Positions 2,706 to 59,289 of a DNA stretch of 64,000 nucleotides are shown here, in pieces. The position numbers were made by a program, and so were the translations under genes. The stretch's first letter is position 1. Every line of letters begins with the position of its first letter. The stretch is from Odiellus spinosus (taxonomy: Eukaryota > Arthropoda > Arachnida > Opiliones > Phalangiidae). Under the pieces are notes generated by a model. It made no database searches and was not told the origin of the DNA. It saw only the letters and a list, made by a program, of their open reading frames with translations. The stretch spans positions 12,014,190 through 12,078,189 of the forward strand of contig OY987236.1 in assembly GCA_963920705.1 (NCBI GenBank). The letters are read 5' to 3'.

Positions 2706-3600
2706 GAACAGTGTCACGTGACTAAGGGGTTTTAGGGATGAGAGTTACATTTCCCTCGAAGGTAAGGAACTAGTATACTTTACGTCGATGAGAAATTTCC
2801 GCTCGACAACGAGTGTTAAGTCGGGCGCGGAAAACACTTGGATCACCCAACCGGAAGTAGAGTCGCGGAAAAAGGAAACGGAAACAAAATTACAAGTCGG
2901 AAGCTGGAGCATAATCCAAAAAGATGATTCGATAGTTTTTTCGGGCGTTTTCTTTTGATTTGAAATATTTTAGAAAATCGGATTAAGAATTCATCGTTTC
3001 AAATTGAGATTTGTAGCTTTACATCTTTTCCTTAAACAATTGATATAAATATTAAGGATCAAGTTGTTAAGGTTTAAAAAAAAGCTTGGCGTTTAATGTT
3101 TGCAGAAGTAATGATTCAAGCCATTAAAACTCGATCGCTTAAAATTCTACTTCGCGAACGTAACTCTAAATCAAGGTTCAACTTAAATTTAGTTTAAGTA
3201 TTTGAAACATTTTAGCATTTTCCCCGGGTTATTTTGTGGTAAACTTTTGACGGCGAAAAGTTTTCATTAGCTGTAAGCACGATTTGCCGATTACGCGGTC
3301 AGTTTCGCATTTTACGATCTTCGCCGTTTTCCAACTCGAGACTCAAGAAAGAGAGAGAGAGAAAGGGATTCTTAGTTTAATAAATAATGTTTTAAACAGC
3401 CCTACTTTAAGACGAGGCTTAGGTTCATTTATTTTAAATAAAGTATTCCGTCCATTTTAAAACCACCGGGTTGACGGTTTACTACCGCAACTGCAACCAT
3501 ACGTAATTATTCAAAGCAAAGACGGATTTTAGAAGTTACACGTACCAACCACCCAATTTTTAAAGGGATTGTAAAACATTTATATTTAATATTATATTGA
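2706..3600. other. Non-coding stretch, nothing recognised
   Basis: AT-rich with a short GA-rich run near 3347-3365. No gene, RNA or clear repeat structure seen. Confidence 0.4.
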
Positions 3601-3654
3601 TTTTATCGTCACAGCCAAGCGTTCAAAATTCTAAGCCTAAAGTATTTAGATTTC

Positions 3655-3900
3655 TCGGATATGCTAAGCCTAATGTTCCTGAACCAATTATGTTTCTCGG
3701 TTATGCTAAGCCTAAAGTTCCTGAACCAAGTAAGTTTCTCTGATATGCTAAGCCTAAAGTTCCTGAACCAAGTAAGTTTCTCGGATATGATAAGCCTGAA
3801 GTTCATAAAGCAAGTAAGTTTCTCGGATATGATAAGCCTTAAGTTCATAAAGCAAGTAGGTTTCTCGGATATGCTAAGCCTAAAGTTCATAAAGCAATTC
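3655..3900. repeat. 42-bp tandem repeat, about six units
   Basis: The block ATGCTAAGCCTAAAG recurs at 3661, 3703, 3745, 3787, 3829 and 3871, a regular 42-bp period. Because 42 is a multiple of three, both strands carry long open frames encoding a repeating 14-residue peptide (for example SFSDMLSLKF on the plus strand). I read these frames as by-products of the period. A looser ~30-bp tandem built on GAAAACGCTAAGCCTAAAC follows at 3900-4000. Confidence 0.8.
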
Positions 3901-4221
3901 CTTGAAAACGATAAAAGCCTAAACTAAAAAAGATTCATTGAAAACGCTAAGCCTAAACTAAAATTTTTGATTGAAAACGCTCAGCCTAAACTAAAAGTTT
4001 TAAACGTGAGACCTACTTCTTGGAAACGATAAGAAAATTTGGTATTTAACACTGCCCCTTTCCTTTGAAATAACATGAAAAATACTCAATACTTTTTCAG
4101 AGTAACAGAAAATTGCGTTACTTCTACACTAGTGGGGAGGGGAAGAAATAAGGATATTATATATCTATACAGTACAAACACAATGATGTTGATTTAAAGA
4201 AAAAATAAAAAATGCTTTTAA

Positions 4222-4804
4222 AGGGATAATGAAAGGGCGAAACAACCTATTTTTTATCGATTAAGAATGATAAAATAATGAGAAAAACATTAACAAAACT
4301 CACCAAAAAGGTTTCGTTAATTTGTAATCAATTTTCAAAGTCCCAAACTTCAAGCTGCTAAGCCTTGGTCGGTAAATGGGGCGAGCACGACCTGTATTTT
4401 TTTTTAAATGCGCGGAGGCCCAGGATCCAATCACGAGCTAGTACGCTTTTTTTATTGTCAGCCACTCAGAGCGCGCCCTGATTTTCTACTTGATTTTAGT
4501 CTGGTTCGATTGAATTCTCGCCTCTTTTTCAAGTTTACAAACTAAAGTAAGTTGTTTTATCATGTGAATTTTAATTTATTCTATTTTATAAATCAATCTA
4601 AAATATTTACTGATATTGGGTGAAATTTCTAGGGATTATTTAGCAACTACATGAGGTGAAATGATTTAAAAGTCCAAGGCTTACACGCTATGCTATAGTG
4701 GCTATGCTCTATACTCTATAGTCTTCAAACTTCAAAGATTAAAAGTTCAAAACTTGCGATAAGTTTAACTTCTACTTAAACTATTATTCAAGATCGGATT
4801 AGTA
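4222..4804 (+). repeat. Left terminal inverted repeat of the Kolobok element
   Basis: 583 bp, reverse complement of 9743-10318. Differences seen: two transitions near the outer third, a 7-bp insertion (ACTCTAT) near the inner end, and T/C at the AACTTGCG/AACTCGCG site. The repeat is long enough to contain the promoter of the inner gene, whose ATG lies 83 bp past its inner end. Confidence 0.95.
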
Positions 4805-4887
4805 TTATTTTAAATGCTTTCCAAGTCCCAATTACTTAATTTCGACGGCTACGTAGACTGTAGACTCATTAGACTACTCTCTCTGAG

Positions 4888-5688
4888 ATGAGTTCGATCC
4901 AACCTTACAATTTTGAACCTTTGGTAAGGGATCAACCACTATCCCAGCCCCTACTATCAGAATCTGATTCTGAAACCGAAGACAGAAATGAGCAACAACC
5001 AATTAACGCTGAACGTGTGGGAAATATAAACTGGTGCTCGTGCAACAATTGCGAGGTAATGGATACAGAGAGAGAAAGTTTATGCTGTCGCGAGGTGCCA
5101 AAAGTTTTGGAGAAATTGCATTGTCTACCTTGCGTTTTACTTTGGCCACGGTTTATTAAAAACTGTTTAGATTTAGATGTATTGGAGCCTGCGTACGATC
5201 GTTATGTACAAGAAACGAATGACAGAAATGACTACGAGATACATATGTAAGCCCAAGATTTATTATTATATTGACTAAAGTTACATGAGGTTTGGTAATG
5301 GAAAAGTGCGCTCCGCTATAGTAATCTTAGAGCCCTTTTGTAATGGCGCTCATTAAGAATTACTATTAGCGTGCCGCTTTTAGAATTAAAACAAGAGATG
5401 AAAGGGGTCGAGTTTATCAAACGTAAAATGGCTAGCAAATCTAACATTACGCAACTCTTCTTCATTCCTAAGAGAAGTGGGCTTTTAGCAGGCTTTCAAA
5501 CCCATGTTTACAATCTTCTATTTATTTTTAGGAAATATAGATACGTTGCCTACAGGCAGTTTGTTAGCATCATTTACCGGAAATTAGGGAGAAATAGAAG
5601 AGTAATCCTTCCAAGTTGCGTGATTAGCAAAATTAGAGACACTTTTCCAAGCGAAGAATATGCGGGATTTAAATATCCCCGTTACTAA
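4888..5688 (+). CDS. P2X7 C-terminal (ballast) domain-like zinc-binding protein of the Kolobok element
   Basis: Two exons, 4888-5246 and 5532-5688, joined in phase through donor AT|GTAAGC and acceptor TTTTTAG|G, give 171 aa. After an acidic, low-complexity N-terminus (residues 1-45) comes WCSCNNC (49-55), then ESLCC (63-67) and further cysteines C79, C82 and C93. Downstream are KYRYVAYRQFV, ILPSC and FPSEEYAGFKYP at the C-terminus. This order (WCxCxxC, LCC, CAYR/VAYR, ILPSC, FP..YxGFK.P) is the signature of the cytoplasmic zinc-binding domain at the end of vertebrate P2X7 receptors, also known as a stand-alone domain in many animals. The channel part of P2X7 is absent. In this element it converges on the transposase and ends 62 bp from it, with overlapping poly(A) signals. 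Its role in transposition is unknown; DNA/RNA binding or partner binding are possibilities. An alternative unspliced frame from about 5371 exists but lacks the N-terminal zinc motif. Confidence 0.85.
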
Positions 5689-5735
5689 TTTCAAGATTTT
5701 ATATATGTATATAATGATACTTAAGTTCCACACGT

Positions 5736-5755
5736 TTTATTCTAATAAATTTATT
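5736..5755. terminator. Overlapping convergent poly(A) signals
   Basis: AATAAA occurs on the plus strand at 5744-5749, after the P2X7-like gene. On the minus strand it occurs at 5736-5741 and 5750-5755, next to and overlapping the transposase stop codon. The two transcripts must end almost back to back. Confidence 0.6.
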
Positions 5756-8700
5756 TTAAAAATCTCTTTTTTTTCTGTGCAATCACATCACTTTTATTGA
5801 TATTTAAAGAAAGTTTATCTGATAGTTTTTCGACGTGGCAAGCTGGTGCCATTAGAGTGTAACTGGCAGATGCATTTGCAGCATTTTCGTAAGTTTTTTG
5901 CATTAGTAATTCCACATATTCTACAAAAATAAGCGTAATTATCATTACGTGATAAAGTATTGTATTTATCCAAAACAGTTCCTAATTAATCTCCTCTTCC
6001 CAAAATTACTACAGTAAAACCTTGATAAAACAATATTCCAGGGAATAATTTTATGTTCTGATTTTCAGTTAGTGCAGGTAGGGCTTGCAAATTATAAGGC
6101 GGTAAATTTAAAAATATTTGTTCTAAGTAGGGGTGTACGAGTACCCTGTCGCGAGTCCGAGGCGAGTCGGGACTCTCAACCTGTTTCTTCTGGACTCGCG
6201 CGAGTACCCAAGTCCTCCATTAGGGCTAAAACATTACTCGAGAAGGACTCAAAAAGAGGTGTAAATACAAAAGGAGTCCAAATTTTTGGGCTAGTCCATA
6301 TTTTTACAACAGTTTCTATCCTTTTAGTTAACTTACTTAACCTTTAACCACTGTACTACTAAAAAAATTCTTTATCATGGAATATTCCAATACAATAGTA
6401 AATAGTATAGGGTGGTGGACATCATCTTTGTTTTGGCCACAGAAATTTTGGGCTCGTCTTGGACTCGAAACCATTTCTTAAGGACTCGAGGACTCGGCGA
6501 GTCCTGTTTTCAGAGGACTCGGCGAGTCCTGTTTTCAGAGGACTCGGACGAGTCCGGTTTTCCAGGACTCGGGACTCGACTGGAAACCCAAAAAAACAGG
6601 ACTCGCACACCCCTATTAGAAGCAATATTTTGTTTTAACGCGTTCCGTTACGATATATTAGGGAAGAGGTGATTAATTGATATAGGGCAGGAATTAAAGT
6701 ATAGAGTTGTGCAAACCAAATGTACTGTCTTCTAGTAGTTTTTTTGCACTAGCTTCTCCGCCTTTGCCTTTAGGAAATGCCAAAAAGTAAACTTCCTCGC
6801 CATGTTCATCAACGACTTGTTCTTTGTGCCCATTTTCATTAAAATGCAACACTGCCAGAATAACTCTACAACATTACAACGTACCTTTTATTAATTTTTA
6901 TGATAAAAAATATTCTTACGATAGTTTGAAAACTAACCTTGATTTCATAGAATCTGCAAAAAAATGTAACCTTTTCGGACAGAAAGAGTTCAAAACCGAG
7001 TGAAACACTTCCACCGAATAAGTTTGATAATCGTTGGATAAATTTGCGATACCAGAAAGGGTGTAAGGAGAGTTTACTATTTTTGAAATTTTGCAATATA
7101 AATCTGTACCTGTAAAATATATTTAATTATATTAATATATTTTAAATAATATTAATAAAAGAAAAATTGCGCATTACCATGCTCAAGCCAAACTCTTATT
7201 TCGTCTTCGGGGATTTGTCCATGAGCGCAACTAGGAAATAGTTTACTGTGACCTTGATGTATGTTACACATGTGATTTAATATTGATCTCCATTTCTCAA
7301 TTTTTTCTTCTTTTGTTGTTGACGAAGAGGCCAACCAGTATATATGATTAATAATTCCTTTTATCCAAAGTTTCAACTCCCCGCACCCTTTTTGATTAGC
7401 GATGCCATTTAGTTTTGTTTTGACGTCTGTAAATAATAACAAATTAGCTCCGCATTTATTCGCAATTAAATTTGACATTAGAAAGATTCCTAGTTTAGGG
7501 CAAAATTTCATCTAAGATATATTAATTACTGGAAAATCATTGCCAAGCCTCGGCGCAGTAACGTTAATCTTACTTTAAAACTTCAACCCTTTAGATTTAT
7601 CGTTGTTGATAAATACAAATAAAGCGTTCATTTTAACGTATTATATTCTCAACAAATTCATCAAAATTGCCACGTTTAAATTGACGAACATATCAAAAAT
7701 TTAATATAGAATCGCTACTCTTCATCCAAAGGCGCCGAGCAGACTACGTTTAACGCGTAATACTAGTACGGCTTTTATACGATAGATGGCTATGGCTATA
7801 CGCGTATTGGCCAACTTTATTAGAACATTGAGGTTTTGAAATAAAATACATTACTTTTTGAAACGTGCCAGTTATCAAGCTCATGGACAATATCTTCATG
7901 GTTGTCTCGAAGGAACGCCAAGATCGACGGGTGTTTATCCGTGACAACTTTACAAATATTTAATCCAAATGACTTCAAAAAAGTAAGCCCGCGTTTTAGA
8001 CCTTCCAACTCCATCGCGTTAGAACTTGATACCTCCGTTGACTATAATTTTTACGCTATTGTTAGAAATTTTAAAATTTAAATTAAATAAAATAAATTGT
8101 TACTTGAACTAGCTCAATGTGCAATATTTTATGGGACTTGGCTTCCATAAAAGTATACGTTCCGTACTTTGCTGAGTAGCCGGGGCTATCAGCTCTGCCA
8201 TCACCACATATGGTTATTGCCTCTGACAAGGAGGCAGCCAAGAGTTTTTCTTGTTCAGAAGACCACACCTATGAGATAATAATTAAGGCTTAGTCCATAA
8301 TTTCAAAATTTAGCCAATTTTTGACTTACTCTTTCAATAACGGGGTGGAACATTCTTTGATAATTAAAGTACATTCTGACGCTAAACATTTTCATCTTGA
8401 ACTGCTTCAACGCGTTGATACACTTGGTTGGAAAAAGTCCCGAAAAGTAAATTGCTGCGGCCAATAAATAATTCCCCCATGAAGTTGAACCGCCGAATCG
8501 TGGTTGACTGTCCCATTTGAAACAACATCCATTTAAACATTCCGTAATAATGGTCAAACTTGTACCCGAAAACTTTTCTGTTGTTTTTATAACTGGACTT
8601 GTATGGCAAGCGTGGCAAATTTTAAATAGCAGGAGTAAATTAGAGGCAAATACTATGTATTTATCTTCAAGATGAGGTTCCTTTTTTGATGGGAACTCTC

Positions 8701-9735
8701 CCCTGTAAAAAATAAAGATAGTTGAAACCAAAATCTCAAATTTTAAAAGAAAAGTCATACTCATCAGACGCGGAGTCGCTGCTATCCAGTTCCTTTTCGC
8801 ACTGACTTCCTGATGGATCGAAAGAAGAATCAATATTTCCTACTTCGCTTTCAGAAGTCAACGAAAGAGGCTGTGACTGTTGTGATTCTACCATCGGCGA
8901 TGACGATTCATCTAATTGTTGGATATCTGATGACTGCGAGAAACCTGACTGGGCTGAATATGAAAAAGCTAGTGCAGCTGTATAGGAAATAGGCTTTTCA
9001 TTCCATGACTTCTCCTGAGAAAACTCTGGTGATGATGAACTACTATACTGAGTTTCTTGGTCAACTCCTTCAAAAACATAATAATTAAATAGAATTTATA
9101 CTATATCATTAATATACTTACCACGGATAGTTTGAGTACATTTAGTTCTAACAGAAGATATGGTTTGCGTTGAATGTGACTTAGTTTTGATATTCTATAT
9201 TTGAAGAGGAAATTATGCAATCAATATATGTAGATCTTTGAATAAAACTTATTAGACCTAATCTTACAGTGGCTGAATATGTATGGAAAACATTGCTGGG
9301 ATCGCCTACAACTCTATCATATAACTTAGTTTCAATTTCCAAATTTTCTTCAATGTATGATTCATTAGAGGCTTCATTCGCGTTTGAAGTAGTAGGATTC
9401 ATAGTTGCTTCTAACGAGCATGCCGCTTCTGTTACATTTGGTTCAGTTTTTTCATTAGTTCTGGCTATTTTAAAAACCGTAGGATCTACAATACTGGGAA
9501 TCGCTGTTCGCTTAATACGTCGTTTCTGTGCTTTTTTTGTTCGCGGTAAAAAACATTCTGTTGTAAAATGTACTGAGCAAACTTTTATCTTTGTTGATGG
9601 TTTCCAATCTAAAGGTTTTCCTAAAGCTTCAATCCATTTGGTTCTCAGTTCTTCATCAGAGGGAAACTTAAAAAATGAAACTCCTTTGGACAATACAGTG
9701 TTATCGCAGTTGTACACGCCACAACGAACCGACAT
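5751..9735 (-). CDS. THAP-domain Kolobok-type transposase, apparently intact
   Basis: Ten exons on the minus strand join without a frame break: 9735-9268, 9194-9122, 9067-8761, 8702-8330, 8268-8104, 8041-7855, 7426-7178, 7109-6938, 6865-6717, 5920-5751; 770 aa. Residues 1-~80 are a THAP zinc finger (C5, C10, C53, H56, with W34 and HF at 56-57). A Ser/Gln/Glu-rich linker (about 150-285) follows. The catalytic region contains CHACH-type cysteines, FGGSTSWGNYLLAAAI, GDGRADSPGYSAKYG (D430, D434), VVTDKH (D497), DNWHVSK (D518), INHIYW and YSVEVFHS (E641); D430/D434, D497 and E641 are my candidates for the DDE triad. All splice sites are GT-AG. Nine donors are ordinary; the last (G|GTTTGC) is weak but restores the family-like C-terminus EYVELLM...KKKRF. 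Without that splice the frame stops at 6694, giving 721 aa. The ATG lies 8 bp inside the right TIR. THAP binding to the TIRs is inferred from the family. Confidence 0.9.
6128..6615. mobile_element. GACTCG-rich non-autonomous element nested in the transposase intron
   Basis: The ends are inverted copies of TAGGGGTGTRCGAGT. The flanks TTCTAAG on the left and TTAGAAG on the right extend the inverted repeat imperfectly. The interior is dominated by GGACTCG/CGAGTCC words, with a ~29-bp tandem unit (AGGACTCGGCGAGTCCTG plus GTTTTCAG) repeated about three times at 6481-6570. The tips resemble hAT-type MITEs, but I cannot fix an 8-bp target duplication. It lies inside the last intron of the Kolobok transposase, so it can be spliced out. 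Open frames in it are artefacts of the repeats. Confidence 0.65.
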
Positions 9736-9742
9736 GTTATAC

Positions 9743-10318
9743 TACTAATCCGATCTTGAATAATAGTTTAAGTAGAAGTTAAACTTATCGCGAGTTTTGA
9801 ACTTTTAATCTTTGAAGTTTGAAGACTATAGAGCATAGCCACTATAGCATAGCGTGTAAGCCTTGGACTTTTAAATCATTTCACCTCATGTAGTTGCTAA
9901 ATAATCCCTAGAAATTTCACCCAATATCAGTAAATATTTTAGATTGATTTATAAAATAGAATAAATTAAAATTCACATGATAAAACAACTTACTTTAGTT
10001 TGTAAACTTGAAAAAGAGGCGAGAATTCAATCGAACCAGACTAAAATCAAGTAGAAAATCAGGGCGCGCTCTGAGTGGCTGACAATAAAAAAAGCGTACT
10101 AGCTCGTGATTGGATCCTGGGCCTCCGCGCATTTAAAAAAAAATACAGGTCGTGCTCGCCCCATTTACCGACCAAGGCTTAGCAGCTTGAAGTTTGGGAC
10201 TTTGGAAATTGATTACAAATTAACGAAACCTTTTTGGTGAGTTTTGTTAATGTCTTTCTCATTATTTTATCATTCTTAATCGATAAAAAATAGGTTGTTT
10301 CGCCCTTTCATTATCCCT
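9743..10318 (-). repeat. Right terminal inverted repeat of the Kolobok element
   Basis: 576 bp, reverse complement of 4222-4804. The transposase start codon (9733-9735) is 8 bp beyond its inner boundary, so most of the transposase promoter and 5' leader must lie in the TIR itself. Confidence 0.95.
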
Positions 10319-10601
10319 TTAACATAGACTCTAATATATACTCCCACACATAAATGGAAACACGACTGTGGGAGGAAGAGAGGTCCCGGTTACCCCCGTT
10401 TGCCTGCACTGTGTTCCACCTTTAACGTTGTCGTAACGTCTCTGCATGTCAAATTCAAATTAAGACTTGGTAACTCTAAGCTTCCCTTTCGGTAGTATAT
10501 ACATTCACGCGGCCGTCAGCTAGACTCGTCAATAGTTTTCCTTTATCCAATCATAAACAGTTACTATATGTCGCGCATTTACCTTTAAAGGGATACTAGG
10601 C

Positions 10602-10737
10602 TTAAAGGGTAACACGCAGCTAAATCGAAAGAAAATGATATATTTTCTGCTAGAAAGATAGAGTTGAAATAAAATCAACGTAGAAATATATACAGCATAT
10701 AGTTTTACTTAATTTTAAATTAATTTTCTACCCTTAA
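10602..10737. repeat. Possible short TTAA-flanked MITE
   Basis: TTAA followed by AGGGTAACACGC on the left, and CTACCC followed by TTAA on the right, enclose 128 bp. The left tip recurs at 19400. The inverted repeat is very short, so this is tentative. Confidence 0.35.
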
Positions 10738-10739
10738 AA

Positions 10740-13700
10740 TGTCAGTACAGCAATAATACAAATTTTGTGAGGGGGTCTGTTTCAAATTGACCCCCTCAGT
10801 TTCTGTTGGTGAAAAGTCAAAAATTTCTTCGAAACGGATTTAGGCTTAACGAGTTCAGTTAGAAACTTTGATAATTAAACTCGTACTTAGGAGAATCTGA
10901 ATTGTGATTTACGCATATTTTTACAGTAAAATAACTAAAAATCGATCGAAAATAACTTTTTCCAGAGTCTAGTATACCTTCGCACTTTTAGTTTATCGGA
11001 TAAAATATATATATACTTCCATTACTTTAATAAATTGTTTGACATAAATGGTTTATTTATTAACTAATCTGTCGTTAGTTAACATTTTGAATATATATTT
11101 ATTAATATATGATATCCTGATTATTCTTTACCTTTATATTATGTTTGTAAAAATAAAAACACGTCTATAAGTCTATTAAAATAAAAAATTCCAATTTTCT
11201 ATTTTTGAAGGATTAATTTAAAATTCCTGGCTTGTTATAACAACTAATCATTCGTGTTATTACGCCCAGATTAGGCTCTACCTCATCTAGGACGATTGTT
11301 ATTCCATCCACATGATATAGGCCTTTCGATAAAATTGATAAACAATATTAATGATATACAAAAAAATCAATCTCACATGTAAACCATTTATTACGTATAA
11401 AAATCACTAGTTTAAGAGAAAGAAAAAAATGTTATTTCGATCGAGATCTTTCAGAAAGTTTAACAAATATATTTATCGACCCAGATTAATATCTCCTAGA
11501 TAGTAAAAACTATCTTCTTACAAGAATTAGTATCTGTAGAGAGAGAGAGAGAGAGGGAGAGATAGAGAGACAGAGAGAGAAAAATAATAATAAAATATAT
11601 CAATCACTTACAGAATTGATATCGATAAGCGAGTTATAGAAGTACAAATATATCTAAGCTATTATCTATGTCGCAGGGATAAAAGGAAGTTAATAAATTA
11701 TATGATAATATTTAATTTAATTTCAAAGCATATTGTCGGAATTACTATATTTAGACGGTTTTTAGCAAATTCCCATTCCCCACTAGCTTCCCTATAAGTT
11801 TATATAATTTCTAAGCCCCTTAAAAAAAGGTTGCTATAAATTCTTCACTTTCAAATTGTTGGTATTATAAATTAATCTTGGAACCAGCAAAAATATACGT
11901 TAAAAAGTACCTGTTTCTACGGAAGATGTTGCCTTTTTTTCAAGGTTGGGACGAAGTGAAATTTTATAATATTAACTATTCCCTTGACTTTTATAGGTTT
12001 TCCCTGACCATATACATAATTTTTCCCTAAACAAATTTCACGTTGACATTAATAGTATCCATTTCAAAATTGTAAGTGTAAAAATAATGTGTACGGCTGA
12101 GTAAAATAAACCATACACGTCCCTGAATCTACGGCACTAATCAGAAACACCCTGTATATACAACAATTTCCAATATTTAATAGAAATTACAGGAAATTCG
12201 GGAAGTGGGAGAGGCTATTTACTTTGTAACAGTGCTATGTTATACTTATTCAAGTAAAATCAGGAAGTTGAACTAAGTCATCGAGTCAATTCCCATATAT
12301 ATCGAAGCCTGAAGATTTTTAGTTTTGTTTTGTTTATAAATAGCAATATATACCAGTACTGTTACAACACCGAAACACGGTGCCCCTAAATCAATCACAA
12401 TTAAAATACGTTGTAGTCTGAAGCAAACAAGGAGAAAGAAGGGGTGGGGATGTGAGAATAAGAATTTTAAAAGGTCAGAACTATACAAGAGGTTATATTA
12501 GCCGATTTAAATCGAAGTTTATGTTCACTGAGCTTGACTGAATGAGAAACATAAGGTACTCTTTCAATATGCCACATGATTTAGCAGGAAGATTTATCCT
12601 TCGATGCGCCACATTTCTAAATAGAGGTGGCGTCAAAATCCTAAGAATTCTTTCAGTGATTAATTTTAACAAGTATTTGTAAGAATTCTTTCTTTCACCG
12701 AAAGAAATTTAAGTATTTTGACGCGCTTGATTTTAAGGACATAGAAAACTGGGTATTTAAAGGACGCATAGAGTGGGAGCCCTGAATTTCCGGAATTCTG
12801 ATATCTTGATTTAATTGTCTAATTAGGTGATTTCCCCCTTTAATTAAAATTTTTGAAATTTTCAGTCTTGTTCAATAATCTATCATATACATTTTCCTTA
12901 AACTTCCTTTCATTCGCCTTCTTTACTAGAACGAAATAAAGTCGGTGATAAGGTTTGAGAGTAACAGGGATTTTCAATTTGCCTTTATTTACTCGAGCTA
13001 CGAACGTGACACAACAAAAGTTCGATTTTTGCTTCCTCTTCCCGCGCCGGTGCACGAATTAGCGTCATTTATATATTGAACGAGAAATCAGAAAAGCCTT
13101 GAACCCCCCACGAAGGTTGGAAGGGGTCGCGGGGAAAGGGTTTTAGATTCAGATTGATGACTTTCACTTAAGGCATAGAATTAAGGGAAGCTGGAACTTT
13201 TAATAAGATTATTATAGGGTAATTTATTCGATAAGAGTAATAATTACTCTCCCTATTCACTCTTGAACAATGTTTGATGGTAATGCAAGTATACGGAGAA
13301 AGAAGTTATTTATCTTAGTTTAAAAACAGGGCAAACAAAATTAGGGCTTCTAGTGACAGGTAGGTAGCGAATGTTTTAAAGGAATTCAGTATTAAAGTGA
13401 TGGTGTCACTAATTTCTTAAGAAAACCACATGGAATTTGAGTAGTATTTTCGGTTAAATTATAATTGGCGTCATCAATATGGTCACGCGACTTTTATAGA
13501 GAACTTAACAGTTGATTCTCGTGCATCTGGTACGTGAAAGTACTTAATCCAGAAAAATATAAATTTACATATTTTTCAATTTCAATTTTGAAGTTTCTTA
13601 AAAATGCGTCAACTCAAAGCTTGAAAATATTAATATGAAAAAAATATATATGTACATATAGACCTACGAAAAAATTATTTAAATATAAATCAATATGTTA

Positions 13701-47138: not shown

Positions 47139-49142
47139 ATGGCGTCAAGCTTTCAGAAAGTTTCTAAACAAAAAGAATCAACTATTCCAGGAACAAAAAT
47201 TTCTATTCAAAATGCGCAGCTCCTAACATCAACTGGAATAACTAACCTTGATTATTATTTGGGTAATTTAAATATATCGTTTAACTGATTTACAACGTGA
47301 AAACCCAATTTATAAAACCTTAAGCCTTTGCTCTATGTTATAACTTGAGAAAACTAAATGCCTTCCTTTTAATTAAGCCTTTGACTGTCATTTTACCCCC
47401 TTCCTTTCCCCCATTTTAAACAGGTGGTGGACTACCCATCGGTACCATCCTATTGATAGGTATGTTTAAAAAAATAATAATACTGTACCGCATAAAGTAA
47501 TACAATTATAATTGACAGAAGAAGGAAGCGAAAATGCCTACCCAAACTTAATTTTGAAGTATTTTGTGGCCGAAGGGGTCATCCACAAACACGCTGTATT
47601 TTTAAGTAGTTCCGAAACACCTAGCCAAACTATTCGAAAGAGTTTACCAGGAGTGTCAACCACTGAAATTAAAAAAATCAACTGTGTTGAGTCTGAGCCT
47701 ATGAAAATTGCGTGGAGGTACCAGGATTTACCTGTCAGCAAGGTAGTACTCGAAGGGATCATATGCTCTAGAAAGAGCCCCTTGAAAAGTTTCTTCCTAC
47801 CTGTTTAAACTATCTTGTCTTCCATTGGTTATGAAGAAAATTCAGCACGTAATGTTGTGTGGGTTAGAATCCTTTTAAGGGGCTCTTTTGTAGTTGAAAT
47901 TTTCTTAATTAAAACTTAACCTTCAGGGAAGTACACCACGATTGGGTGATAAACCTCATTCTTTCAATTTGAGTCAAAAAATGGATGAAAAACTGATTGA
48001 AGAAAGCCATATAGTAACTCACGATGTTGGTGGTGCTAATCTACAGAACAATTTCTCTCAATATGATGAGTTATTAAAGCAATTAGTACCCGAAATCACA
48101 AAATTCTCAGTAAACTCTCCTCCAAAGGGTCTTCTTAGAGTCGCAATAAATGGATTAGGAGGTCCACTATGGTATTCCAACAACTCTGACAATGCAAAAA
48201 TGTTACTAAACTTCTTATACAATCTCCGAAGCTTAGCCAGGTTTTCTTACGCTGTTTTTCTAATAACAATTCCAACAATAATCTATCAAGTAAGAATTAA
48301 AAACCAGTTTAGACTTGAAAATACTTGTTAATATTTCAAAAATCTTTACAGGAGCTTGGTTGCGTTAACAAAATTAGATTATTTGTGGATTATGTTATCG
48401 CTCTCGAACCTTTAACAAAAGTTGATGACAAAATCAACCCTGCCTACAAAGACTATCACGGCCTTTTTTACTTTCGCAAAAGAAGCGCAATCAATTCAGT
48501 TACTAATTTTGTAATTGACACATCAGACTTAGTTTTCAAATCAACAAGAAAAGGCTTCGTAATAGAGGTTATTGTTATTAAAGGAAGAATGAAGCCTGAC
48601 AACAAGCTTTCTTTTATCGTTTTAAAGTAGACACGATAACTGACTTAATTTCGGCCTTGTGAAATTGATCTCTCAACAAGCTCACGAATTTCACCTTCAG
48701 AACTGTAGAAAATTGGTTTACCTAATGAGGGAAAAATCTAATTTGGAAAAAATGGCCCAAATTGGAAAATTCCTTCTGAATTCGACCAAATTAAATACCC
48801 TGAATTCAACAAAAGTGGACTAAGGCATTTTAAATTTTGATACGCGAGATCAATTTGAAGAGGCCCGAATCATGTCCAGTTGCGTATCTTGCTTGTTGTT
48901 TCATTTTTTACCAGTGAATAATAGAAAAATTACTCGTTATTAGGCTTCATTTTCCTTTGAATGTGCTGTAAGCTTCTTTTTTTTTTTAAGACTTATTAAT
49001 TTCCTTGTTACAGAAACTTCATTTACCGCCTGATCTAAGTGAAACAGTTAGCCGCTCTAACGCTGACCCCAAAATTACAAAAGAAAGAATTAAAAACTTG
49101 GCTTGCGGAGCCCCAAGTGGACATAACAAACTAGATTTCTAA
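47139..49142 (+). CDS. ELP4: Elongator complex protein 4
   Basis: Six exons, 47139-47262, 47424-47459, 47519-47742, 47927-48289, 48352-48567 and 49014-49142, all GT-AG and in phase; 363 aa. Key stretches: STGITNLDYYL then GGGLPIGTILLI across the first two introns, NLILKYFVAEGVIHKHAVFL, MKIAWRYQDLP, and the C-terminus EKLHLPPDLSETVSRS ... HNKLDF, all characteristic of ELP4 (PAXNEB family). ELP4 has a RecA-like fold without a complete Walker A and forms a hexameric ring with ELP5 and ELP6. That ring docks on ELP1-3 in the complex that makes the 5-carboxymethyl/methoxycarbonylmethyl modification at U34 of tRNAs. Length is slightly below that of vertebrate ELP4 (about 420 aa). AATAAA (49142-49147) overlaps the stop codon. 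Tail-to-tail with NF-YA. Confidence 0.95.
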
Positions 49143-51367: not shown

Positions 51368-52585
51368 CTAAGTTTCGTATTTAAAATTTACTTCGGGATG
51401 ATCTACAAGCTGCGCGGCTAATCCATTGCTAGAATGCATTGAATCCGAATCGGAACCAGTTTGAGAATCTCCGCACATTTTTGGTAATCTATTACCCATT
51501 TCGTCGTATTCATCTTTGTTTGATCCAGAGTGAAACCTTCCACCTTCTCCTCGTATCCTGTTCATGGCATGACGGTGACGAGATTCGTGTAGATATTTCT
51601 GAAATCAATAAATAAAATTATGTTGATAACTAGGTTTATTACTTCTTTCCGTAATATTTCCATTTTCATTATTACCCTTCTTTCTTTTGGGATTCGACCT
51701 TCAGCTTCGAGTCTGGCTCTTGCTTGTCTTCTTTTCAAGATCCTGTGATATTGTTTGGCATTGACGTAGAGAGGTTCTTCTTCCAATAGTTCGGCGCCTG
51801 GCAATGGGATTCTTTGCAACCCTTGTAAATTACTAGCAGAGCCTGGAACAACCATGACTATGTTACCTCCCTGCATAGCTGGTACTGCTCCGGGTATTTG
51901 AATGGCTTGAGCCTGTTGATTCTGCGCCGGTGGTGGAGATTGAGGAGGGGCAGACTGCGTTTGAACTATCTGGGGTTGTTGAGCTTGCATAGCGCCGGCT
52001 GGAATTTGAATGATTCCACCTTGAGTTTGCAAGAAATTTGTTCCTTCCATTGCCATCGGTTGATAGATTAGAGTTTGCCCATCCGCAGTTTGAATGATTT
52101 GACCTTGTTGGGGTTGTTGAATGATGATCTGTTGACAAAGCTGTTAGATCTCGAACTTAAATTAAAAAATGGTTGTCCAGAACTATTAAAGGTTAGGCAT
52201 AACAACCAATGAGACTTACTTGTTGAGCCTGTCCTTGTTGACCTTGTAATTGTCCGATGGGAATGACTTGTATCTGTTGGACGGCTTGACCCGGTTGACC
52301 TTGAATTTGTATCGTTTGATTTTGAGGAATTGATTGCAGCATTATTTGCTGACCCCCGCCTGGTTGCGTCACCTGAATCATTTGCAAATTCTGATGCGTC
52401 TGCGGGAAACCATTATTCAGTAATCCCGGCTGGTATCCATTGACCGTAGTAAAGGTCTTATTAACCTGCTGTTGCTGGCCAGCTTGCTGAACCTGAAGAT
52501 TCTGAAGCATTTCCGCCGTCACCCCTGTGGATGTGATAGTAACTGGACTCGTACCCTGAGTTGTTGCCATCTGAAATTGTTCCAT
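51368..52585 (-). CDS. NFYA: Nuclear transcription factor Y subunit alpha
   Basis: Three coding exons, 52585-52220, 52128-51676 and 51598-51368, GT-AG and all phase 0; 349 aa, close to the vertebrate length (about 347). The first ~235 residues are Gln-rich (for example GQQIMLQSIPQNQTIQIQGQ, IIIQQPQQGQIIQTADGQT), the usual activation domain. The conserved core follows. EEPLYVNAKQYHRILKRRQA...EGRIPKERR is the NF-YB/NF-YC-binding helix; KYLHESRHRHAMNRIRGEGG is the helix-plus-GxGGRF element that contacts the CCAAT box minor groove. The exon boundary falls exactly between the two. The tail is Ser/Asp-rich and ends FKYET; a donor-like GTAAAT near the end leaves open an additional 3' exon. A splice acceptor just upstream of the ATG (TTTTTCTAG, ~52600) shows a separate 5' leader exon. 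NF-Y is a heterotrimeric CCAAT-binding activator. Confidence 0.95.
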
Positions 52586-53940: not shown

Positions 53941-55570
53941 ATGAACGCTTTATCAAGTAAAAATATTCTCCAAGTATTTTCTTGGGTACGATTTTCTGAG
54001 CAATATGTTGGATATTATGATTAATAATTTAATTCTAATAAAACATTAGGGAGCAAATAGTCATGGTCAACTAGGACAAGGGGACGAATTAGATAGAAGT
54101 CAGCCTAATGAGTGTAAAACTTTACTTTCAACTAATGTTAAATACATAACTGGTGGAGGAAGCCACACAGCTATCTTAGATGGTATTAATTGTACTTTGT
54201 TAACTTTCATGGTGTTAAAGTTTAACCATATTTTGATTTTACCCATTTTAGATCAGGGTAACTTGCAAAGTTGTGGATTGAACAAACAAGGTCAAATTGG
54301 ATACAAATGCTCTGACCACAACAATACCTTTAATCTAGTTTCTGAGATAAGACCCCACGTTGTGAAAGCAGTAGCTTGTGGTTGGGATTTCACATTAGCC
54401 CTGTCAGATTTAGGCCGCGTATTTAGTTGGGGCAGCAATGTATACAGTCAACTTGGAGTAGAAGAAAACATACCAAATTCTGCCAAACCCCTGAAAGTCA
54501 CAAAGTTGGATGGTAAAAATGTAATCAAAATTGCAGCTGGATTGAGGCACGGAGTTGCTATAAGTAAAATTCAAAGTGAAATTTATTTTTTTAATCTTCT
54601 AACCTATTCTCTGAACATTAGGTGAAGAATCAATTTGGGCTTGGGGAGAAAATCGAAAGAGCCAATGCGATGCTCAAACTTTTGATAAAATTATTAAAAC
54701 TCCCTTAAAAATTAAGTTGTCAGTTGCCAAAATTAAATTAAAGTCCGTCAAATGTGGCGGCTTTCATGCTCTTGTTCTTTCAAGTATGTTTTACTCTTTT
54801 AGAAAATTTTATTTTTAATCGCCCTCCTTTCGGCCTATTTTTAGCCTATACAAAATTTAAATCTGCACCAAATTTACAGCCTCAGGTGATTGTTACGGTT
54901 GGGGGAGTAACAATAAAGGTCAACTTACTGCTGACCCACTTATCAACAAGTCTTTAGCCCCATTAAAACTAAGCGTTCCTAAACTAAGCCATGTTTCTTG
55001 CGGATGGACTCATAACACTGGTCTAATAGGTATATTTATTATCCTATAAATCATAATTAGTATAACCATAAGTTTCAGAAGATAAATTATAAACTAATGA
55101 TATTACTCTTATTATTTGTAGAAGAAGAAGGTAGTGTTGTATCTTGGGGTAGAGGTGATTATGGCCAACTTGGAAGACCATGTCCATCATCTGGTTATGA
55201 TTTTATTCCTAAATTAATCGAAATTAAAGATTGTGTTACAAAAGTATTATTAATTTTATTATTTTAAATTTAATTAAAAACCTAAAATGTCCAATTTAAA
55301 GGTATGTTGCGGGTCTGAACATTGTCTAGCATTAACTGAAAGTATGTAATTAATTTTGTGAACCAAAAACTATATAAACTCAGGTTTTAACTATAATTCA
55401 ACATTCCAGAAGGAAAACTTTACTCCTGGGGTTGGAACGAACATGGAATGTGTGGTCAAGGTCATGAAGAAAATGTACTTTCGCCGACAGAAATACCTTA
55501 TTTTCAAAACCAAAATGTGATTAACATTGGATCCGGCGCTGGCCATAGCTTTTGCCTAAGTCATAAGTGA
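53941..55570 (+). CDS. SERGEF: RCC1-repeat protein, SERGEF (DelGEF)-like
   Basis: Eight exons: 53941-53985, 54050-54182, 54252-54563, 54622-54783, 54886-55029, 55122-55243, 55302-55341, 55410-55570; phases consistent, 372 aa. The first exon, ending QVFSW, joins to GANSHGQLGQGDE. RCC1 blades follow: TGGGSHTAIL, LQSCGLNKQGQIG, VACGWDFTLALS, VFSWGSNVYSQLGV, AAGLRHGVAIS, IWAWGENRKSQC, CGGFHALVLS, CYGWGSNNKGQL, CGWTHNTGL, VVSWGRGDYGQLGR, CGSEHCLALT, LYSWGWNEHGMCGQG and GSGAGHSFCL. The CGWDF, WGRGDYGQLGR and SWGWNEHGMCG versions are those of SERGEF, the secretion-regulating GEF that binds the exocyst subunit Sec5; biochemical role is from the family. It lacks the long C-terminal tail of vertebrate SERGEF (458 aa). 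Seven blades fit a closed propeller. Confidence 0.88.
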
Positions 55571-56450: not shown

Positions 56451-59289
56451 ATGGCCATGTTGCACCTTCATTTACTGCCACTTGCGGCTTTCGTGATCTT
56501 GCCATCAACATTCCTAATAACGTAAGCTAAATCGAATCAAATATTGGGAGGTTTGAAATATAACTAGAGTCAATCTATTAATTTAGATATATTATTTCAA
56601 TCTTGCTGGGCCATGTGGAGGTAGAATTTCCTTATATCAGCGATACTGGAGCGCTTAATCCTGAATCAAATATTTTTGGTCAGCTATTAAACATTGGATC
56701 GTTTATAGGTTAGAAACTCGAGAGCATATACGGATAATTAAGTTGTTTCTAAATCTTAATTTTGTATTAAGTTGGCACTACCATGTACGTTCGTTACAAA
56801 CAAATCGAGCAGTATTATCGCGATCACCTTTCATCCGAATCTGTAAAAATTTTGAGGCTAAATACCGCCGCATTGTGGATTGGTTGGCTCGCCACATTTG
56901 GCATGTCATTAGTAGCTAATTTTCAGGTATTTTTAGGTCTGTCATAAAGTGTTGTTTTAAAACTGAAATTTACGTGAATCAATAGGAAACAGCCGTACTA
57001 GAAGTGCATTTGATCGGAGCCACGATGCTTTTCCTTTTTGGAAATATATATATATGGCTTCAAACAGTTATGTCTTATTACATGCATCCTTTGTTGAATA
57101 GTTTGAGAATGGCCAGGATACGCTTGATTCTTTCGATACTTGCATCTATTGGATTTGTCTTTAGTATCCTTTAAAATTAAAAATAGAACCTTGAAGGGAG
57201 TATAAAGGAAATGTGACTGCTTAATTTCTATTGGAACTATCTCCAGCTATGATAACTTGCAGTAATTAGATGATATATTCTAAATTTGGATTTTTATACT
57301 CCGTTAAAAAGATACTAGACTCTGGAAACAAGTTGTTTTTAATCATTTTAAACATAATATATGCCTAAAAAAATTATCAATACTCGCAACAAAAGTTTTC
57401 CAGTTAATTTTCAAAGTGGCAAAATTAGGCTTGATGATATTGCCAATGCCATTGGGGGTTTCTTCTTTGACTTGGCGCGTAAATCAAAGAAACAGCATGG
57501 TTCACAAGCCATTTTTATACGATGGCAAATTCATTGGCATCAGCAACTCACTTTTCTCAAGAATTTTTCTAGTCTAGAATTTCTTCTTTACAGATTTAGG
57601 TTTAGGGAGTCTAGTTCGTGACTTTAATAATTAACTCTTAAAACTTTTGATATGATTTTTACGCATATTTTAAGAGTAAAATCATTAAAAATAACTTTTT
57701 AAAGTCTAGTATATATAGTTTATTAAGTAAATTGTAAAATGTAAAGGGATAATGAAATTTAAAATTTTAAGTTTATTCAAATTTGTAGTTAAATTTAAAG
57801 AGACTCAACCTAAATGGTTCAAAACAACAAAAAAAAGTTAACTATTAAAATAGGTAGACTCGAGTATTTCATCGTTCCTTTAATGAAACTAAAAAAAAAA
57901 TGCAAAAAAGGAAAAATATTTTCTTAACAGTATTACTATAGCAACAATATTTGCGGCCATATCTTTGTCACGATTTCACGGTGACAATAAACGAAAATGG
58001 CATCCTACGGATGGTGTAAGTCCCTCATCTATATCTATACGATAAGTTGTTGCAGAATTAGAATAATCTTGGTTTTTAGCAATATTTTTCTAATTCTGCA
58101 ACAATTGCATGTAAATCGTAACCATGATCATTTTATAAAACTGAATGACTTGAAAATAACTTCATTTTAAGGGCTTTGCTGCTCATTTGGTCAGTACGGC
58201 ATCCGAATGGATAACAACTATGGCATTCGACATTTTTTTCCTAACTTTTGTTCGAGAATTTCAAAATTTTGCCATGGAATCTCCTAAAGTATTGACTAGA
58301 CAATTGATTTAATAGTTTGAGAAATTGAACGAAGAATGCCTAGCTAACATAAATAATTTTTATTGCAGCTCCTTAAAAAATATGTCCAAATGAATTGTAA
58401 TAGTACAGCTTTATACGTTCTTCGCGCAATTTTTCTTACAGTTTAAATTTAAAATGACAATGCTGCCCAACAAAGTGATTTTCTATCGATTCTTATAGTT
58501 TAATTCTCTAGTAACATTTACTAAGATTATTAAGCTAGAAGTAGGCTTAACAGTTTGATACCTCCCCATGATAAAAGTGCTCCTTTTTAGCCTATTTTGA
58601 AATGTTTCAATTTCAGAATAGAACATGTTCTGATTCGCCATAGCGTCATTAATGACAAGATATTAAAATCTACATGAATTCTTGCTAAGCCTACTATATC
58701 AAACTCTACCTAAATCCATGTTAAGCCTACTATACCATCAAACTACAAGGATCCTTGTTAATTCTACTTTACTATCAAACCCATATTTCCTTGCTAAGCC
58801 TACTTTTCAAACTAAATGAATCCATGTTAAGCCTACTTTTCAAACTAAATGAATCCATGTTAAGCCTACTTTACAATCAAAATACTTTACTATCAAACAA
58901 TACATGGATCCTTGTTAGGCCTACTTTACTATCGAACAAAGTATACATGGATCCTTGTTAATCCACTTTAAAAATTGTTTTCTCTAGCTTAAACTTGTAG
59001 TGAAGTATTTAAACAAAAAATGAAAAAAATCAATGGAAAATCGCTTATCGGGTTGAATTCTCACTTTAAATAAAGAAAAGTTATTCTTAATTAAACAAAA
59101 AATTATATTTGTGAAAAGGTTCTGTTTTTAACGCCGGAAGAAAACAGTTTACCAACGACGAGTGATTTTTACAATAGCGAAGATCAAGTAGAGATTACTC
59201 ATTCTCACAATTACGGGACGGAACGTTCTCTAGAAGCAGTTGACCCAAAATTAAGGCAAACTATAACTGCGGATGTTCATAATAAATAA
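56451..59289 (+). CDS. DRAM2: DRAM2-like autophagy modulator, multi-pass membrane protein
   Basis: Seven exons: 56451-56521, 56587-56708, 56772-56926, 56986-57163, 57942-58015, 58172-58288, 59119-59289; GT-AG, phases consistent, 295 aa. The N-terminus LLPLAAFVILPSTFLITYII is the first membrane helix. PYISDTGALNPESNIFGQLL and GTTMYVRYKQ are family signatures of the Frag1/DRAM/Sfk1 group, followed by hydrophobic segments (LWIGWLATFGMSLVANFQ, GATMLFLFGNIYIWLQTVMS, IRLILSILASIGFV, EWITTMAFDIFFLTFVREFQ). About six helices in total, as expected. The acidic, polar tail ends ADVHNK. Vertebrate DRAM2 (266 aa) is a lysosomal membrane protein promoting autophagy. DRAM1 is a less likely identity. Introns 4 and 6 carry TTAA-type MITEs. 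AATAAA overlaps the stop codon. Confidence 0.88.
57191..57722. repeat. Second AGGGAGA-family MITE in DRAM2 intron 4
   Basis: Starts TTGA-AGGGAGTATAAAGG (degraded TTAA) and is homologous over its length to 49567-50141 (GATACTAGACTCTGGAAACA, CATCAGCAACTCACTTTTCT, CAAGAATTTTT). The right tip is worn away. The 86-codon frame at 57361-57621 runs through it. Confidence 0.65.
57741..57883. repeat. Short AGGGATAATG MITE in DRAM2 intron 4
   Basis: GTAA-AGGGATAATGAAATTT at the left and AGTATTTCATCGTTCCT-TTAA at the right, 135 bp, immediately after the previous element. Its left tip AGGGATAATGAAA is identical over 13 bases to the autonomous Kolobok tip. Confidence 0.55.
58449..59069. repeat. TTAA-flanked MITE with internal GTTAAGCCTACTTT repeats, DRAM2 intron 6
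   Basis: TTAA at 58449 and 59066. Left AATGACAATGCTGCCC, right GGTTGAATTCTCACT, diverged relatives of the GAGAATGCAACC tip. Between 58630 and 58980 about ten units of TCCATGTTAAGCCTACTTT (20-40 bp spacing) form a tandem array. The same GCTAAGCCTA word makes up the 42-bp array at 3655-3900. Confidence 0.7.

Follow-up and report, generated by a model that had tools for sequence, protein, structure and literature searches.

A recently multiplied Kolobok transposon of Odiellus spinosus with a KolX gene, of the P2X7 ballast type, facing its transposase gene

The locus that we describe here, in the genome of Odiellus spinosus (Arachnida; Opiliones), raises the question of what a gene for a P2X7-type "ballast" domain is doing next to the gene of a transposase: whether it belongs to the transposon, how it is related to the C-terminal domain of the ion channel P2X7, and what its protein may do for the element. 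The stretch that we have analysed, referred to below as the window, comprises 64,000 nucleotides of contig OY987236.1 (assembly GCA_963920705.1, positions 12,014,190 to 12,078,189, forward strand), and its positions 4218-10322 constitute a complete Kolobok DNA transposon, with TTAA duplications, inverted repeats and two genes. According to Kojima & Bao (2022, PMC9587614), where Kapitonov & Jurka are credited for Kolobok, the Kol0 lineage of Kolobok encodes two proteins, the second of which, KolX, has the ballast fold. The window element is a recently multiplied new member of this published, KolX-bearing kind; the sequence-only reading, i.e. an earlier interpretation of the same stretch, had taken the two-gene arrangement for an undescribed one, and this part of it falls away with the published pairing of Kol0 and KolX.

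A two-gene Kolobok element, its copies and its relatives

The view of the locus as a TTAA-flanked Kolobok with long terminal inverted repeats (TIRs), whose two genes splice into complete reading frames (171 and 721 amino acids), has been borne out. The dominant inverted-repeat pair in a search of window positions 3600-10900 is 4218-4744 / 9796-10322, and the gapped alignment of the two arms, the TTAA included, gives a length of about 585 bp, with 580 of 591 columns identical and one 7-base gap. Inward of the outermost TTAA, both arms begin with AGGGATAATG, and the ends inside the TTAA, AGGG...CCCT, fit the 5'-RR...YY-3' termini that separate Kolobok from piggyBac (PMC9587614). KolX is located on the plus strand and the transposase gene on the minus strand, i.e. 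the two genes are convergent, facing each other: KolX starts with the ATG at 4888, 80 bp inward of its TIR arm, and its two exons, joined across a GT-AG intron, yield the protein of 171 residues; the transposase starts 4 bp inward of its own arm, and its nine exons, which span 9735 to 6694 and are separated by GT-AG introns, yield 721 residues. Both splice models have been built from sequence and homology alone.

The N-terminus of the transposase matches the THAP domain (PF05485, E 1.5e-15, residues 5-82), and an N-terminal THAP domain is typical of Kolobok. In the catalytic part, where Pfam gives no match, CGDGRADSPG, VTDKH, DNWH and VEVFHSVL, as assigned by eye, occur in the same order as in Kolobok, whose transposases have a DDD/E triad with a C/DxxH motif between the second D and the last E, and a zinc finger located after C/DxxH and ahead of the last E (PMC9587614); by our visual judgement, the Cys/His cluster of exon 7 sits between DNWH and VEVFHSVL. 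The Pfam search of the window transposase has returned no catalytic, piggyBac or TNP-like GTP-binding domain. Some piggyBac families carry a KolX-like C-part (PMC9587614), and a piggyBac of this type is ruled out here by the transposase, which matches THAP and no piggyBac model.

The genome that we have searched for further copies is the 443-Mb assembly that contains the window. At least 45 TIR matches occur in it (40 of 1348 candidates were scored, so that the copy counts are lower bounds), and the full-length set comprises 18 elements, i.e. the window copy and 17 other long copies. All of these 17 have TTAA at their ends and the two-gene interior of the window element, and the bases outside the TTAA, of which eight per side have been compared, vary among the copies. 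The two-gene unit is not a chance arrangement, since 17 other places end in TTAA with differing flanks, and the same interior between TTAA ends puts out the reading of KolX as a neighbouring or nested gene. The P2X7-type gene is thus a resident of the transposon, as the sequence-only reading had it, and one that other copies keep: it is present in all 17 of them and intact in 16.

All full-length copies except one (17 of 18) differ from the column majority by 0-3 substitutions over about 6080 bp; the window copy has 3 substitutions and a 25-bp insertion peculiar to it, which falls in the repeat-rich segment between the two genes (visually placed, starting at alignment column 3977), copy L010 has one inserted base, and L023 and L024 have seven gap columns each. 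The KolX frame is intact in 17 of the 18 copies, including all 17 young ones, and the transposase frame in 16 of the 18 (16 of the 17 young ones), with L012 having a stop at transposase codon 706. This family expanded very recently, and its activity may be continuing. The diverged copy, L025 (G000:C1:15084423-15092565), has 42 substitutions, an altered transposase frame and, by eye, a missing KolX splice donor; it is also a case of TIR extension, as its TIRs have been extended to 2085 bp with 99.86% identity and the first transposase exons are duplicated in the left arm. Three shorter inverted pairs that consist of the TIR ends only (G000:C45:548290-548724, C45:1008112-1008546 and C2:30996870-30997354) are likely non-autonomous derivatives of the window element.

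The facing layout extends beyond the window family. With 150 of 159 candidates scored, the genome gives at least 93 matches to the Pfam model P2RX7_C (PF20478), the window family accounting for 18; since each exon is matched separately, the number of genes is not 93. THAP has at least 150 matches (150 of 638 candidates scored), and 35 of the 93 PF20478 matches have one within 9 kb, as measured between midpoints; if the matches were placed uniformly, the number expected by our own arithmetic would be about 0.6 of 93. The nearest THAP match is convergent in 32 of these cases, divergent in 2 and tandem in 1; the tandem case is L025, where the arm is duplicated and a convergent THAP match exists as well. 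When the 93 matches are merged with 68 further rows of a protein search into 117 KolX places, and the 150 THAP matches together with 8 transposase places are taken as possible partners within 9 kb, 47 places have a partner: 46 are convergent (18 from the window family, 11 from a second family and 17 others, about ten families by our own grouping) and 1, on C118, is only divergent; 2 of the 46 have, in addition, a second partner in another orientation.

In the second family, all 11 KolX places have a facing THAP match 3.3 kb off, and the members score identically; L060, the one copy of this family examined, has identical 14-bp termini and TTAA; its KolX shares with that of the window the PYxFEPL motif at the N-terminus, which also recurs in the KolX of L062, and an intron at the same position and in the same phase. 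At L059, TTAA and near-identical termini, with a single mismatch in 14, surround KolX and pieces of a transposase; at L056 and L057 the facing pair is present, and termini were looked for and none found. The earlier reading had itself named the recent insertion of a host gene into one element as an outcome that would contradict it; both the domain and the facing layout are common to diverged KolX groups, and such a recent capture is therefore out.

A different transposase stands beside KolX at L058 (G000:C118:152200-162199), where the neighbouring gene is P-element-like and encodes an RNase H domain and a GTP-binding insertion domain. The sequence that L058 has in common with its relatives L029-L031 is limited to about 2 kb around KolX, and its P-like frames are not repeated at any other KolX locus examined, these loci being only 3.4 kb long; the P-like transposase is probably a neighbour and not the captor of KolX, which is likely rather than proven because the compared loci are so short.

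The KolX protein and its relation to P2X7

The sequence-only reading had proposed a profile search of the 171-residue protein, and the spliced KolX matches PF20478 with 62.9 bits (cut-off 23.5; E 4.8e-17, residues 29-167), the unspliced frames having matched it with E 4e-6 and 1.9e-7. PF20478 is the sole Pfam match at E <=0.001, i.e. the P2X channel domain is absent from KolX. Against the PDB, phmmer connects KolX residues 46-169 with P2X7 (6u9v, E 2.7e-6), and a profile made from 10 KolX proteins of this genome reaches P2X7 chains with a best E of 2.2e-26. Viral or prokaryotic relatives of KolX have not been confirmed in pattern scans.

For the comparison of residues, 12 KolX proteins have been aligned with 6u9v, which we take to be rat P2X7 (its residue numbers agree with the rat numbering of the papers), and P2X7 numbering is used throughout. 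Eight ballast cysteines have been compared: those at 479, 482, 498, 506 and 572 are present in all 12 KolX proteins, those at 477 and 499 in 11, and that at 573 in 6. The domain consensus has been given as PxWCxCx2C, LCCRx3GxCITT and PSC(C/S), with "seven/eight conserved C" (PMC7016195); the window KolX, which has seven of the eight cysteines and V at position 573, fits this P2X7-type cysteine pattern, where C/S is permitted at 573.

In several KolX groups (L026-L034, L049, L055, L058 and L059) a CXC-like, cysteine-rich block, of the type MPCxCxxNCLSxKxRNACxCR...CTxxC, occurs upstream of the ballast exon, without matches in Pfam or the PDB; a longer KolX may use it as a DNA-binding exon, the splicing being putative.

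P2X7 has been derived from a P2X4-like gene that was fused to KolX, and Nanor is a likely domesticated KolX (PMC9587614); the idea that a transposon was the source of the P2X7 C-terminal tail, as the earlier reading had suggested, is plausible. A tree of 15 KolX and P2X7 rows, built on 136 columns, unites the window KolX with those of L062 and L060 (99/97), and P2X7 falls somewhere among the other KolX groups on a long branch. The sample, a single genome and three PDB chains of P2X7, is too small to settle the donor. The window clade is not the nearest to P2X7 in this tree, and P2X7 would have drawn its tail from another KolX lineage.

The ballast domain has been found across animals (Rump et al. 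2020, PMC7016195), including an Ixodes protein in which a "TAHP" domain precedes it; the string "transpos" does not occur in the main text of that paper. A text search of the Xenopus Kolobok paper PMC6004289 has given no mention of a second open reading frame, P2X or KolX, and no functional study of KolX has turned up in searches of the open literature.

Maintenance of KolX and the readings of its role

KolX is under purifying selection in two informative comparisons: between the window and L062, dN/dS is 0.155 over 162 codons (bootstrap 0.078-0.259), and between L028 and L027 it is 0.135 over 193 codons (0.080-0.210). Because the frames are intact, the facing layout recurs and KolX is under this selection, KolX is a maintained part of the transposon. 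We infer its biochemical role to be, most likely, that of an accessory factor, and we lean, with some confidence, towards the reading that the window element is an autonomous Kolobok of the Kol0 kind, recently multiplied and maybe active, whose KolX helps the transposase or its complex. The transposase would bind the long terminal repeats, with the THAP domain as the presumed contact, and insert the element at TTAA; KolX, a small fold probably stabilised by zinc and probably nuclear, would assist it, possibly as a direct partner, and would be retained since copies without KolX would propagate less well. Both genes probably share a promoter and would be co-expressed, because the near-identical arms stop 80 bp short of the KolX ATG and 4 bp short of the transposase ATG.

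The same selection, and the joint presence of KolX and transposase in the young copies, would also suit a KolX that counters the host. Such a KolX would keep the transposon expressed by blocking silencing, a DNA-damage response or an immune response, and would take no part in the transposition reaction. Other transposons carry anti-silencing genes, and the domain was later used in an inflammation-linked receptor; no host target is known, however, and the conservation from this genome to P2X7 suggests a conserved fold and partner and not a fast-changing arms-race protein, so that we consider this role possible and rather unlikely. KolX might otherwise be a guanine-nucleotide-binding regulator of the transposase, in place of the GTP-binding insertion domain that is found inside the P-element transposase. 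The P-element transposase uses GTP, and no TNP-like GTP-binding domain has been matched in the window transposase, a silence of Pfam that is weak because the catalytic domain was missed as well. The ballast domain of rat P2X7 has a guanosine-nucleotide site (PMC7016195), and R546 (10 of 12 KolX proteins), Y550 (12 of 12) and R578 (12 of 12) are kept; of the rat GDP contacts R546, H547, R574, R578 and K583, however, H547 is found in 3 of 12 proteins and R574 and K583 in none, and the window KolX has R546 and R578 only, lacking three of the five. With the binding itself putative, such a regulator is doubtful, and equally doubtful is its boldest form, in which KolX would be a guanine-nucleotide-binding zinc protein that gates the assembly of the Kolobok transposase in trans, the P2X7 tail being a re-used transposition switch.

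We consider it highly improbable that KolX is a functionless passenger, captured once and carried along: the decayed relative L061 has pieces of a transposase without KolX, and 70 of the 117 KolX places have no nearby transposase match, but a dN/dS of about 0.15 in two comparisons, the facing layout at 46 of the 47 partnered places and the intact KolX frame in all 17 young copies speak against it. In our ranking, the accessory role in transposition comes first as the probable one, the counter-host role second as a lesser possibility, and the guanine-nucleotide switch, the boldest of the three, is the least expected.

Several points weigh against the favoured accessory role. Further KolX pairs have a dN/dS of 0.41 (46 codons), 0.56 (3 changes) and 0.10 (4 changes), synonymous sites are saturated in three pairs, and the rows of the two informative comparisons are imperfect, as L062 lacks four residues and L027 lacks cysteine 477. 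The intended yardstick, the THAP exon of the window compared with that of L061, gives 1.20 (0.70-2.13); L061 (G000:C2:32881800-32888300), a diverged relative, is probably dead, because the 6.5 kb examined there contain the left end and the first part of the transposase only and no KolX, and the conservation of the transposase is therefore not demonstrated by the same measure. The catalytic residues have been placed by eye, and the 70 places where neither a transposase nor a THAP match lies within 9 kb, as found with 150 of 638 THAP candidates scored and with old copies that may be broken, may include stand-alone KolX genes.

The 17 near-identical full-length copies, together with a second family of the same layout, are good material for testing the need for KolX in transposition and its binding of guanine nucleotides, and the function of KolX would bear on what an ion channel gained by capturing the ballast domain.

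Feature coordinates, surroundings and known systems

Table 1. Features of the window element (window positions; motif and residue assignments marked "by eye" were made visually)
Feature	Positions	Strand	Basis
TTAA target-site duplication, left	4218..4221	.	sequence reading
Left TIR, starts AGGGATAATG	4222..4808	+	inverted-repeat search and gapped alignment
KolX exon 1: PYxFEPL motif at the N-terminus, six of the seven shared cysteines of the ballast	4888..5246	+	sequence and homology
KolX exon 2: ILPSC...IRDTFP...GFKYP, stop 5686-5688	5532..5688	+	sequence and homology
Repeat-rich segment separating the two genes, bounded by short inverted ends	6128..6615	.	inverted-repeat search
Transposase exon 9	6694..6865	-	splice model
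Transposase exon 8: VEVFHSVL with the putative catalytic E (by eye)	6938..7109	-	splice model
Transposase exon 7: Cys/His cluster	7178..7426	-	splice model
Transposase exon 6: VTDKH with the putative second D, DNWH for the C/DxxH motif (by eye)	7855..8041	-	splice model
Transposase exon 5: CGDGRADSPG with the putative first D (by eye)	8104..8268	-	splice model
Transposase exon 4	8330..8702	-	splice model
Transposase exon 3	8761..9067	-	splice model
Transposase exon 2	9122..9194	-	splice model
Transposase exon 1: THAP domain, ATG 4 bp interior to right TIR inner end	9268..9735	-	splice model
Right TIR	9739..10318	-	inverted-repeat search and gapped alignment
TTAA target-site duplication, right	10319..10322	.	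sequence reading

Elsewhere in the window, exons of host genes occur, namely of PAXNEB (47909-48331, plus strand), NF-YA (51562-52143, minus strand) and an RCC1-repeat protein (54050-54625, plus strand), and two tandem repeats located far apart, at 3651-3897 and 58670-58883, share TAAGCCTA (periods 42 and 33/102). Tandem arrays of TTAGG, the arthropod telomere repeat, are abundant in the genome, with at least 8096 forward and at least 3600 reverse matches, compared with 1 and 0 for the reversed control; among the matches listed, these telomere-type arrays are located at many internal places of C1 and not only at its end.

Two-gene transposons that combine a transposase with a small conserved second protein, as the window element does, are also found in PIF/Harbinger and Mutator, whose second proteins differ in fold from KolX. 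Closest to the window element is Kol0, represented by Kolobok-1_XT (PMC9587614), which likewise has TTAA, RR...YY ends, a transposase and a protein of the ballast fold; its hosts, as given there, are vertebrates, annelids, cnidarians and sponges, whereas the host of the window element is an arthropod. The window element is further characterised by TIRs of about 585 bp that nearly reach both start codons, by introns in both genes and by many near-identical copies; the passages of PMC9587614 on Kol0 and KolX contain no statement on gene orientation, copy age or TIR length. In KolobokP, the second protein is encoded downstream of the transposase and on the opposite strand, as in the window element, but it is a His-Me finger nuclease and the repeats are long direct ones, in place of KolX and inverted repeats (PMC9587614). 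The ZCD or Nanor-like proteins are short and have the same cysteine domain at the C-terminus, as KolX does, with one or few (<10) genes per species (PMC7016195), whereas this genome has at least 93 exon-wise PF20478 matches, many of them beside a Kolobok transposase. Finally, the ballast domain of P2X7 (PF20478; PDB 6u9v) is homologous to the window KolX, with seven cysteines, R546, Y550 and R578 in common; the window KolX differs from P2X7 in having no channel part, in standing alone as a protein of 171 residues and in not keeping C573, H547, R574 and K583.

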